Shown here piece after piece: positions 13,319 to 19,594 of a DNA stretch of 64,000 bases. A model generated the notes under the pieces. That model ran no database searches. It had not been told where the DNA came from and was given only the letters and a program-made list of their open reading frames with translations. This DNA comes from Sphingobium naphthae (lineage in GTDB: Bacteria > Pseudomonadota > Alphaproteobacteria > Sphingomonadales > Sphingomonadaceae). Both the position numbers and the translations under genes were made by a program. The first letter of the stretch is position 1. Every line of letters starts with the position of its first letter. The stretch is taken from assembly GCF_020782235.1 (NCBI RefSeq), contig NZ_JAJGNO010000003.1, forward strand, positions 62,001-126,000, in the 5' to 3' direction.

Positions 13319-13537
13319 TTACATCGCGTTGGCGACGTTGTTGGTCGCGTTCGACGCAGCGTTGGCGGCGTTGTCGGCGGCGTTCATCGCAGCGTTCATG
13401 GCGTTGTCGGCCGCGTTCGACGCGTTCTCGGCGGAATTGGCGGCCGCATTGGCAGCATTTTCCTCATGGTTGCCCGAGCAGGCAGCCAGGCCCAGCGAAG
13501 CGGCGAGAACGAGCGAAAGAGCAATCGACTTGGTCAT
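13319..13537 (-). CDS. Asn/Ala heptad-repeat lipoprotein
   Basis: 72 residues. ATG 13537 is preceded by GAGGGG and gives a lipoprotein signal peptide with lipobox LAAC (Cys 20). The mature 52 residues are almost only Asn and Ala, with Asn spaced 3 and 4 apart in near-strict alternation (NAA-NAAA-NSAE-NAS-NAAD-NAM-NAAM-NAAD …). That is a heptad pattern as in coiled coils such as Braun's lipoprotein, but with no Leu/Ile core and no C-terminal Lys for peptidoglycan linkage. The function is unknown; a small abundant outer-membrane spacer is one possibility. The gene has its own terminator. Confidence 0.75.
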   Translation of the reverse strand: MTKSIALSLVLAASLGLAACSGNHEENAANAAANSAENASNAADNAMNAAMNAADNAANAASNATNNVANAM

Positions 13538-13716
13538 GGGCAACAACCCCTCTCTGAGATAAAAAATATGCAGACCACTCTCGGAGAAAAGCTCACCCCC
13601 CATTGCGCCTGCGCCGCGATTCGTAATGCTTTGATCGAACCAAGGCAATCCCATTCATGCAGACGCAAGGCTTTGCGGGGGTCGTTACGGCTTGTTCGCC
13701 GCAGAAATGAGGAGCA

Positions 13717-13753
13717 TTGACGCATATAAAGATTTCTTTATATGATACCGTCA
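13717..13753 (+). promoter_or_regulatory. Promoter and palindromic operator of the met operon, probably leaderless
   Basis: TTGACG (13717–13722, -35) and TATGAT (13741–13746, -10) are 18 bp apart, which puts +1 on the A of ATG 13753; no ribosome-binding site precedes that ATG. Filling the spacer and the first part of the -10 is a palindrome with 10-bp arms, CATATAAAGA (13723–13732) and TCTTTATATG (13735–13744), two bases apart. A repressor bound there would block RNA polymerase. ArsR-family regulators of the SAM cycle (SahR/SamR type) are known; that this gene's product binds here is inference. Confidence 0.75.
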
Positions 13754-14724
13754 TGCACTCCGCTCTCGACATTTTCCGGGCGCTTGGCGATCCGACGCGG
13801 CTGCGCATCGTCCACTTACTGCGGGCGATGGAACTGGCCGTGGGCGAGATCGCACAGGTCGTGGGGCAAAGCCAGCCGCGCGTGTCGCGCCATGTCCGCA
13901 TCCTTGGCGAAGCGGGCCTGGTCGAACGGCGCAAGGAGGGCAATTGGGTGTTCCTGCGCCTCGCGCGGGAGGAGGGGGTCGCGCCTTTCCTCACCCTGTT
14001 CGACCGGCTGCGGCCGTCGGCATCGGAAGCCCTGTGGCAGGCGGCGGACCTGGCCCGCCTGTCGGAGGTGCGGGCCGAGCGCGCCCGCGCCGCCGAAGCC
14101 TATTTCGCCGAACATGCCGAGGAATGGGATGCGATCCGCTCGCTCCACGTCCCCGAAGCGCAGGTCGAAGCGGCGATGACCGCGCTGCTGGCTCAAGCGC
14201 CGATCGGCCATTTGCTCGACATCGGCACCGGCACCGGCCGCATGATCGAATTGTTCGGCCATGATGCCCGCCAGGTGACCGCGCTGGATCGCAGCCCCGA
14301 CATGCTTCGCCTCGCCCGCGCCAAGCTGCCGCAGGACGCCGGCGACAAATATGCGCTGCTGCTCGGCGATTTCCTCGACTTGCCGCTGGCGCCGGGCAGC
14401 ATCGACACGGTGCTGCTGCATCAGGTGCTTCATTATGCCCAGGCGCCCGAGCGCGTCATCGCCGAAGCGGCGCGGGTGACCGCGCGGGACGGCCGCGTGC
14501 TGATCGCCGATTTCGCGCCGCATCAGCGCGAGGAACTGCGCGCGCGCGACCAGCATGCGCGGCTCGGCTTTGCCGACGCGCAGATCGAACGCTGGTTCGC
14601 GGATGCGGGCCTTGTCCTGGAGCGGGTGGAAACCCTGCCGGGCCAGGAACTGACGGTGCAACTGTGGCTGGGGCGGCGCAAGAGCGCCGATGTCCTGCCG
14701 CTCGAACGACGGATCTCCGCATGA
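13753..14724 (+). CDS. ArsR-family regulator fused to a SAM-dependent methyltransferase
   Basis: 323 residues. The N-terminal winged helix (about 1–85) has DPTRLRIVHLL and the recognition helix QSQPRVSRHVRILGEAGLV. A class I methyltransferase domain follows, with motif I LLDIGTGTGRM near 154 and the later ALDRSPDMLRLA. I see no vicinal-Cys metal site, so it probably senses a small molecule, likely SAM or SAH in the methyltransferase fold (inference from the family and the downstream genes). ATG 13753 is chosen over TTG 13717 because the latter lies in the -35 box. It overlaps metF by ATGA, so regulator, metF and metH form one operon, probably autoregulated. Confidence 0.9.
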   Translation: MHSALDIFRALGDPTRLRIVHLLRAMELAVGEIAQVVGQSQPRVSRHVRILGEAGLVERRKEGNWVFLRLAREEGVAPFLTLFDRLRPSASEALWQAADLARLSEVRAERARAAEAYFAEHAEEWDAIRSLHVPEAQVEAAMTALLAQAPIGHLLDIGTGTGRMIELFGHDARQVTALDRSPDMLRLARAKLPQDAGDKYALLLGDFLDLPLAPGSIDTVLLHQVLHYAQAPERVIAEAARVTARDGRVLIADFAPHQREELRARDQHARLGFADAQIERWFADAGLVLERVETLPGQELTVQLWLGRRKSADVLPLERRISA

Positions 14725-15632
14725 CCTTCCCTGATCGCCTCCCGCCGCTCTATGCGGATCTTGCCGGCGACGCGCGCGTCAGCTTCGAATTCTTCCCGCC
14801 CAAGACGGAGAAGATGGAAGCGCAGCTCTGGTCGGCGATCGAGACGCTGGCGCCGCTCGCGCCGCGTTTCGTGTCCGTCACTTATGGCGCGGGCGGCTCG
14901 ACGCGCGAGCGAACCCACAATACGGTTGCCCGCATCGCCCGGGAAACGACGCTCGCTGCCGCCGCGCACCTCACCTGCGTCGCGGCCAGCAAGGGGGAAA
15001 TTGACGAGATCGCCGACGCCTATTGGGCGACGGGCGTGCGCCACATCGTCGCGCTGCGCGGCGATCCGCCCGAACAGGGCGGCCGGTTCGAAGCGCATCC
15101 CGACGGCTATACCGGCGCGGCCGACCTGGTCGCCGGGCTGGTGAAGCGCCATCCCTTCGAAATTTCGGTCTCGGCCTATCCGGAAGTGCATCCCGACGCG
15201 CGCGATGCCCAAAGCGACCTCGACAATCTCAAGCGCAAGCTCGACGCCGGCGCCACGCGCGCCATCACCCAATTCTTCTTCGCGCCCGACACCTATTTCC
15301 GCTTCATGGACAAGGTGCGTGGCGCAGGGATCGACGCGGACATCGTGCCGGGCATCATGCCGGTCGGCAATTTCGCCTCGGTCCAGCGCATGGCGGCCAT
15401 GTGCAACACCGATGTCCCCGCCTGGATGGGCCGCCTTTTCGAAGGGCTGGATGACCGCCCCGCCGCGCGCCAGCTCGTCTCCGCCACCATTGCGGCCGAA
15501 CTCTGCCGCAAACTTTATGAAGGCGGCGTGCGCGACTTCCATTTCTACACGCTCAACCGGGCGGAACATAGCTACGCCATCTGCCATCTGCTGGGGCTGC
15601 GGCCCAAAGTGAAGGCGAACGCAGCGGCATGA
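14721..15632 (+). CDS. metF: 5,10-methylenetetrahydrofolate reductase
   Basis: FAD enzyme making 5-methyltetrahydrofolate for MetH. 303 residues, normal for bacterial MetF. Family motifs are FEFFPPKTE near residue 23, SVTYGAGGSTRERT near 53, HLTCVAASK and ALRGDPPEQGG near 110, and PEVHPDA near 155. The start overlaps the regulator stop (ATGA). It is followed by a palindromic repeat and the first metH gene; the order regulator–metF–metH suggests joint control of methyl-group flow. Confidence 0.95.
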   Translation: MTFPDRLPPLYADLAGDARVSFEFFPPKTEKMEAQLWSAIETLAPLAPRFVSVTYGAGGSTRERTHNTVARIARETTLAAAAHLTCVAASKGEIDEIADAYWATGVRHIVALRGDPPEQGGRFEAHPDGYTGAADLVAGLVKRHPFEISVSAYPEVHPDARDAQSDLDNLKRKLDAGATRAITQFFFAPDTYFRFMDKVRGAGIDADIVPGIMPVGNFASVQRMAAMCNTDVPAWMGRLFEGLDDRPAARQLVSATIAAELCRKLYEGGVRDFHFYTLNRAEHSYAICHLLGLRPKVKANAAA

Positions 15633-15642
15633 TGGATTTCCT

Positions 15643-15745
15643 CCGTTCGCCCTGAGTAGCCATTGAGCTTGTCGAAATGGCGTATCGAAGGGTCCTTCGA
15701 TATGGCGCCTTCGACAAGCTCAGTGTCCCTACGCAGGACGAACGG
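15643..15745. repeat. Dispersed palindromic repeat (CGTTCG-ended)
   Basis: A 103-bp imperfect palindrome starts CCGTTCGCCCTGAGTAGCC and ends CTACGCAGGACGAACGG. Inner arms GAGCTTGTCGAA and TTCGACAAGCTC pair, and a small central hairpin surrounds TCGAAGG/CCTTCGA. Its outer ends match the element at 32820–32932 and, more loosely, that at 41938–42029. It sits between metF and metH inside an operon. Confidence 0.85.
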
Positions 15746-15769: not shown

Positions 15770-16819
15770 ATGATGAGCGCCGAAGCACAATTGCGCGCCC
15801 TGGCGGCGGAAAAGGTCCTGATCTTCGATGGCGGCTATGGCACGTCGATCCAGAAACATGGCCTGACCGAAGCCGATTATCGCGGCGACTTGGATCTCGC
15901 TAAGGACCAGAAGGGCAATAACGACCTTCTCTGCCTCACCCGCCCCGACATCGTCGAGGGCATCCACGCCGCCTATCTGGAGGCGGGGGCGGACATGATC
16001 GAGACCAACACCTTCTCCTCGACCAAGATCGCCATGGCCGATTATGGCTGCGAGCATCTGGTGTGGGACATCAATGTCGCCGCCGCGAAGCTGGCGCGCT
16101 CGGCCTGCGAGACGGCGAGTGCGAAGGACGGCAAGCCGCGCTTCGTCGCCGGATCGATCGGCCCGACCAACAAGACGCTCTCCATTTCGCCCGACGTCAA
16201 CGATCCCGCCTATCGCGAGGTCGATTATGATACGCTCAAGGCCGACTATCGCGAGCAATGCGACGCGCTGATCGCGGGCGGCGTTGACTTCCTGCTGGTC
16301 GAAACCTGCTTCGACACGCTCAATGCCAAGGCCGCCGGCATGGCCGCGCGCGAAGCCGAAGCCGCCGCCGGCCGTTCGGTGCCGCTGATGCTCAGCTTCA
16401 CCATCACCGACATGTCGGGCCGCAACCTGTCGGGCCACACGATCAACGCCTTCTGGTATTCGCTGCGGCACCTGAAGCCGCTGACGATCGGCGTCAATTG
16501 CGCGTTCGGCGCGGACCTGCTGCGCCCCTATCTGGCCGAATTGTCGAAAAATGCGGACACGCTGATCCTGGCCTATCCCAATGCCGGCCTGCCCAACGAG
16601 CTCGGCCAATATGACGAGCTGCCCGAAACCACCGCGAAGCTGATCCGCGACTGGGTGGACGAAGGCCTCGTCAACATGGTGGGCGGCTGCTGCGGCACGA
16701 CGCCCGCCCATATCGGCGCGGTGGCGCGGGCCTTGGCGGGCGAAAAGCCGCGGGTGGTGCCGAACCTGCCGATCGTGACCCGGCTCGCCGGCCTCGAACC
16801 CATGCACATCGCGGCCTAG
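15770..16819 (+). CDS. metH: Methionine synthase, homocysteine-binding half (split MetH)
   Basis: 349 residues equal to the N-terminal homocysteine S-methyltransferase module of cobalamin-dependent Met[14 protein letters not shown] is near the N terminus; the zinc-thiolate ligands are the Cys in [11 protein letters not shown] (about 246) and the Cys pair in [11 protein letters not shown] (about 305). GAGGCGGAG lies 4 nt before ATG 15770; ATG 15773 is an alternative. The other modules are encoded by the next gene, 174 bp downstream. Split MetH is known in alphaproteobacteria, so this is not a broken gene. Confidence 0.93.
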
Positions 16820-16830
16820 TTCATCCTGGC

Positions 16831-16983
16831 GAAGCCAGACGGAGGGGTTGAGCAGGTTCAGATTGCCCCGGCAATCTGAAGGTCATGCCGGGGCGCATGA
16901 CCGACCTGCTCAACCCTCTCGATGGCGTGACACCCCTCCACCGGCTCCGCCGGTCCCCCTCCCCCTATGGGGGAGGATTTTTT
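16831..16983. repeat. Structured repeat with a three-way junction between the metH halves
   Basis: Outer arms GGTTGAGCAGGT (16846–16857) and ACCTGCTCAACC (16904–16915) enclose two perfect hairpins: TTCAGATTGCC/GGCAATCTGAA (16857–16867 with 16870–16880) and GGTCATGC/GCATGACC (16881–16888 with 16895–16902). GGAGGGG (16841–16847) can also pair with CCCCTCC (16933–16939). ACCGG/CCGGT and the hairpin at 16958–16976 complete it. GGAGGGGTG-type ends match the repeats at 42.75, 47.9 and 48.35 kb. Confidence 0.8.
16958..16983 (+). terminator. Terminator-like hairpin just upstream of the second metH gene
   Basis: CCTCCCCC (16958–16965) and GGGGGAGG (16969–16976) form an 8-bp GC stem with a TAT loop, followed by A and six Ts (16978–16983). 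The RBS GGAAGAG (16984–16990) and ATG 16994 follow directly. In form this is an intrinsic terminator inside an operon; it may attenuate metH expression or may only be part of the repeat. Confidence 0.5.
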
Positions 16984-16993
16984 GGAAGAGACG

Positions 16994-19594
<2,601 letters not shown>

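Follow-up and report, generated by a model that had tools for sequence, protein, structure and literature searches.

The window (the whole stretch of DNA analysed, 64,000 nucleotides) lies within a 4.28-Mb Sphingobium genome and contains a plus-strand gene cluster, sahR-metF-metH1-metH2, preceded by a compact promoter that shares its sequence with a palindrome. The features of the locus are as follows.

13717-13722, plus strand: -35 hexamer TTGACG, from direct reading and a consensus scan
13723-13740, plus strand: spacer of 18 bp
13723-13744, plus strand: predicted 22-bp palindromic SahR operator, CATATAAAGA-TT-TCTTTATATG, filling the spacer and the first part of the -10 and kept in the family
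13739-13744, plus strand: alternative -10 hexamer TATATG, giving a 16-bp spacer
13741-13746, plus strand: -10 hexamer TATGAT, from direct reading and a consensus scan
13753-13755, plus strand: sahR start codon ATG
13753-14724, plus strand: sahR, ArsR-type winged helix with a SAM-methyltransferase fold (from domains and a structure model), predicted to be leaderless from the promoter spacing
14721-15632, plus strand: metF (MTHFR domain), its ATG overlapping the sahR stop (ATGA)
15770-16819, plus strand: metH1, MetH portion carrying the homocysteine S-methyltransferase; start picked by eye
16994-19594, plus strand: metH2, MetH portion with the pterin, B12 and activation domains; start picked by eye in an ORF open from ATG 16967

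The product of the first gene matched HTH_5 and Methyltransf_11, in agreement with an earlier reading of the protein as an ArsR-type DNA-binding domain joined to a SAM-methyltransferase fold. Its structure model (pLDDT 89.6) combines a class I methyltransferase fold with a winged helix, and a structure search with this model returned loose winged-helix methyltransferase matches, the best being Rv2258c with SAH (TM 0.42 by query length). The protein is 92 % identical to its S. soli counterpart, and the methyltransferase motif residues D156, G158, G160 and G162 are invariant across 14 sequences. The downstream genes had been described as metF and metH; metF is indeed present, whereas metH is divided between two ORFs of 380 and 875 amino acids, the first of which has GGAG 4 nt 5′ of its ATG. 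A sphingomonad with a split metH is already known (Sphingomonas koreensis, PMC7857596). Among named relatives (best 80 of 592) the order sahR-metF-metH1-metH2 is complete in 70, the remaining 10 having at least one of the four genes not found within the stretch examined, while in 44 of 78, under automatic start choice, the metF ATG was judged to overlap the sahR stop. Inverted repeats occupy the gaps between metF and metH1 (15661-15724) and between metH1 and metH2 (16857-16880), the former being a member of a dispersed repeat, TTCGACAAGCTCAGTG, present at 10 genomic places with at most one mismatch.

Direct reading of the promoter agrees exactly with the preliminary description, which had placed TTGACG and TATGAT 18 bp apart with the 22-bp palindrome reaching through the spacer into the -10. 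The two hexamers stand about 35 and 10 nt 5′ of the sahR start codon, and in a consensus scan of 13530-13800 this promoter (10 of 12 matches) was the sole plus-strand match; over both strands of the same interval the scan returned two promoters, compared with a mean of 0.1 in shuffled sequences. The TTGACG hexamer is the same in all six aligned Sphingobium, among which the gap from palindrome to ATG is fixed at 8 nt while its sequence is free. By eye no Shine-Dalgarno-like sequence lies 5′ of ATG 13753, as had been noted. The further claim that transcription starts exactly on this ATG held in part: a 6-nt discriminator following TATGAT predicts +1 there, but TATATG taken as the -10 gives 13751, and the predicted +1 is therefore good only to about 2 nt. 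The operator overlaps the promoter of the operon that encodes the regulator itself, as in leaderless autorepressed operons of the acuR type, and this promoter-operator unit is real and very likely functional.

Perfect palindromes with 10-bp arms occur at six places in the window (ten overlapping rows), compared with a mean of 2.1 in simulated windows, and the five further places might suggest that the one upstream of sahR is an AT-rich chance occurrence or is bound by an unrelated regulator. These other five are GC-rich, the operator palindrome having 18 % GC in a 67 % GC window, and perfect 10-bp arms with a gap of 0-6 bp arose in 0.6 % of simulated 250-bp stretches. The same sequence also precedes three further operons of SAM-cycle or methionine genes in the host, and is found before sahR, ahcY and metK throughout the family, with controls of zero in both cases, which makes either version of this explanation extremely unlikely. 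On the recurrent sites against a reversed control of zero, together with the simulated palindrome frequency, we rejected a chance palindrome.

We identified these sites by searching with the 20-bp operator core, allowing at most 2 mismatches and using the reversed pattern as a control. The host genome contains four sites and the control returned none. Upstream sites at metK and ahcY, which the preliminary description had proposed to look for, are among them, along with those of the operon itself and of mesX-mesD:

metK site: 27 nt 5′ of the ATG, with GGAG; gene identified as metK by TIGR01034
ahcY site: 99 nt 5′ of the GTG, with GGAG; gene identified as ahcY by TIGR00936
mesX-mesD site: before the B12-independent methionine synthase pair

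Across 39 family genomes the search returned a total of 84 sites in 32, the other seven being without a site at this stringency, and the reversed pattern gave zero in each of the 39. The targets of 75 of these 84 sites, from 29 genomes, were judged, 17 of those at sahR (including L294) being assigned by coordinates alone; 26 sites precede sahR, 26 ahcY, 19 metK and one mesX, the rest comprising one metE behind a riboswitch, one methionine-synthase-like gene and one unresolved at a contig end. A partial ORF at L337 matched no Pfam family and matched NCBIfam methionine synthase models below their cut-offs. The core SahR targets sahR, ahcY, metH, metF and metK are all represented in the host genome, and this is the regulon already published for SahR in 7 of 7 Sphingomonadales genomes (PMC4239095).

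Domains, operator and targets support the assignment of the putative regulator to the SahR kind and of the palindrome as its operator, with sites at its own operon, metK, ahcY and mesX-mesD. SamR of Xanthomonadales is likewise a SahR-like protein adjoining a two-gene metH, but is distinguished by a 24-bp motif with ATC-N10-GAT and by a regulon that lacks ahcY and, of the SAM-cycle genes, takes in no more than metK (PMC4239095). We rejected a SamR identity, since the operator is without ATC-N10-GAT and ahcY is among the targets; the four-site set predicted in the host genome fits SahR, not SamR. A SAM-sensing co-repressor that resembles SamR in its logic, whereby binding of SAM or SAH would strengthen repression as end-product feedback, is quite unlikely. 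SAM could bind, given that D156, G158, G160 and G162 are kept, metK falls within the regulon and the effector of SamR is unsettled (PMC4239095). Set against these points are the targeting of ahcY, as in SahR but not SamR regulons, the lack of ATC-N10-GAT in the operator, and the report of SAH as the signal activating SahR-controlled genes in other bacteria (PMC8877191). Repression upon binding of SAM or SAH, as the preliminary description had it, is probably inverted, because the literature has SAH relieving SahR repression (PMC8877191). In Ensifer aridi expression of sahR is highest in the sahR deletion, which supports autoregulation (PMC8877191), and autoregulation of sahR is expected in our host.

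To describe the layout across the sphingomonad family we combined 87 loci with the 80 named relatives (best 80 of 592), a set in which some species possibly occur twice, and removed 5 of the 167 as duplicates to leave 162 distinct loci; the start codon was picked automatically as the nearest ATG, otherwise GTG. The first sample showed a palindrome with an in-frame start 0-14 nt downstream in 79 of 87 loci, and a Shine-Dalgarno-like string in one of these 79, inside the palindrome itself. In the merged set an ATG or GTG falls 3-14 nt 3′ of the palindrome in 150 of the 162 distinct loci. A -35 was recognised by rule in 123 of these 150, the other 27 being excluded from the spacing test; measured from its first base, the start codon is 35-39 nt away in 117 of those 123 loci, most often 36 nt (48 loci), the window's own value. 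Shifts of the -35 relative to the palindrome are offset by shifts of the start codon (Spearman -0.32; permutation p 0.0001, with no correction for kinship), a pattern that would follow if the position of the start codon depended on the transcription start as well as on the operator. Promoters measured in Zymomonas have a 17-bp spacer and a 6-bp discriminator, and the working definition of leaderless in that study is a leader of 5 nt or less (PMC7566282); with this geometry the 35-39 nt spacing therefore predicts leaders of 0-4 nt, which is within the definition. Comparative sequence support for a leaderless reading of sahR is thus strong. A start-site map exists for Novosphingobium, cited in PMC12710314.

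Under a different arrangement the operon would be SahR-controlled but its message would start upstream of or inside the palindrome, with a leader devoid of a Shine-Dalgarno sequence and sahR translated by internal initiation. This would accommodate a block at about 13596-13658 that is conserved among the six Sphingobium, and an upstream promoter accompanies about half of the leaderless units in Zymomonas (PMC7566282). We regard it as rather unlikely, as the promoter described above is the sole plus-strand match in 13530-13800, the stretch linking the upstream block to the -35 is not conserved in the six Sphingobium, the -35-to-start distance varies little across the family, and the block can be read by eye as the promoter of a divergent lipoprotein gene. 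The latter, a small Ala/Asn-rich lipoprotein-like gene, lies upstream of the operon on the minus strand (13319-13537), its possible promoter within 13596-13658 being TTGCCT-17-TACGAA on that strand.

The short predicted leader of sahR is not shared by all genes carrying the operator. At ahcY sites the leader is mostly 49-102 nt by automatic starts (one start was placed inside the box, at -1, and one was not placeable) and a Shine-Dalgarno-like string is present in 21 of 25 loci (L345 included), while at metK the box lies 7-74 nt from the start and such a string is present in 9 of 18; none was found in the eight sahR loci of the same run. In five family genomes (L301, L305, L321, L324 and L330) the metK start falls 7-9 nt after the SahR box, and metK may be leaderless there too. 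The 12 of 162 family loci that do not fit (L006, L009, L024, L036, L074, L075, L079, L082, L084, L090, L129 and L182) comprise six without a box and six with the start elsewhere. L006, a homologue from the same genus, has no box nearby; in Zymomonas mobilis (L182), L166 and L036 the box is 165 nt 5′ of the ATG. In one genome (G032; loci L082 and L342) mesX directly follows sahR, the usual operator is absent and a different sequence takes the promoter position, 6 nt 5′ of the ATG.

Outside the family we examined 107 loci (27 plus 80 fetched, from the 125 such genomes with a match), using as the box a relaxed consensus written after seeing the sites. A box precedes sahR in 96 of the 107. An in-frame ATG or GTG follows it by 3-14 nt in 24 of these 96, the other 72 boxes being farther from the start, and 33 of the 72 loci with a distant box have a Shine-Dalgarno-like string before the in-frame start. 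With only 24 of 96 non-family boxes that close, we rejected the view that alphaproteobacteria in general share the leaderless layout; the predicted layout is habitual in this lineage and is not required for SahR control. The acetic acid bacterium Gluconobacter frateurii (L175) has a sphingomonad-like sahR (56 % identity) with a box 9 nt 5′ of the ATG, perhaps through transfer.

Regulator, binding site and targets all belong to known biology. The published SahR regulon shares with the locus an ArsR-type regulator with a methyltransferase fold, a palindrome of about 20 bp and, as targets, the regulator's own gene, metF, metH, metK and ahcY, but the searched text of that paper mentions neither a leaderless start nor an operator serving as spacer, and the term 'leaderless' has no match in it (PMC4239095). 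In the open-licence literature, where the one match read, PMC5243855, contains 'Sahr' as the name of an author, no report linking SahR with leaderless messages or with a cobalamin riboswitch came to light, which is a weak absence. The predicted leaderless layout of the SahR operon, kept across the sphingomonad family, seems undescribed before. It is the newer part, of a kind proven for another operon, acuR-acuI-dddL of Rhodobacter sphaeroides, in which a repressor gene likewise comes first with metabolic genes behind it and an operator over the promoter, and in which the transcript begins at the AUG with no Shine-Dalgarno sequence, as proven by 5′RACE there and predicted here (PMC3017554). That operon differs in having a TetR-family repressor with acrylate as inducer and in the Shine-Dalgarno sequence of its own that acuI carries, whereas metF here overlaps the sahR stop (PMC3017554). 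Lambda cI and Tn1721 tetR are also repressors made from leaderless messages, but are unrelated regulators with no metabolic operon behind them in such a form (PMC3017554). The gain is thus one of architecture and not of a new system: a guess from one genome becomes a family-wide prediction of a leaderless message for a core metabolic operon throughout a large lineage, and other leaderless operons could be spotted cheaply from their -35-to-start spacing.

Considering the sequence evidence together, sahR-metF-metH1-metH2 is probably an autoregulated SahR operon with SAH-relieved repression and a message that is leaderless or nearly so. Judging from its position, a SahR dimer on the 22-bp palindrome across the spacer and -10 would block RNA polymerase. 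SAH is said in the primary SahR paper to release SahR from DNA; following the SahR literature, accumulating SAH would bind the methyltransferase-fold domain, SahR would leave the operator, and the operon, ahcY, metK and mesX-mesD would be switched on, clearing SAH and rebuilding methionine and SAM. By comparison across the family the transcript would start no more than about 4 nt from ATG 13753 and the sahR message would be leaderless; metH1 by contrast has a Shine-Dalgarno site, and metF overlaps the sahR stop. A fusion to the AcuR repressor was translated at about 7.5 % of the level of the next gene (PMC3017554), and by analogy a leaderless start may hold SahR at a low level compared with the enzymes.

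A cobalamin riboswitch (RF00174) has a SahR box 26, 26 and 27 nt 5′ of it in three genomes:

Host genome (G000:C22), L002 1501-1796: box and riboswitch before mesX-mesD
G045, L343 2594-2867: box and riboswitch before mesX
G004, L328 600-879 (also L344): box and riboswitch before metE

Of 99 family genomes 3 contain PF08908, and two of these have the box and riboswitch; the third (L342) gave no box match below 6 mismatches and no riboswitch at the gathering score. The placing of mesX-mesD behind a cobalamin riboswitch departs from the published regulon, where metE2 is a genome-specific SahR target and PF08908-metE2 is under MetR (PMC4239095). A SahR site and a riboswitch on one operon have a precedent in Oceanicaulis hom-metXC with SAM_alpha (PMC4239095). 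The pairing of box and riboswitch could form a two-input gate on B12-independent methionine synthases. Tentatively, and as a proposal with somewhat less than an even chance of holding in full, operator, promoter and start codon would form a unit of about 40 bp setting a low repressor:enzyme ratio family-wide, and the operator ahead of cobalamin riboswitches would act as a two-input gate (high SAH, low B12) on the unrelated MetE and MesX-MesD. A second cobalamin riboswitch (L002 247-482) has an unusual target, a downstream ORF containing thioesterase (4HBT) domains.
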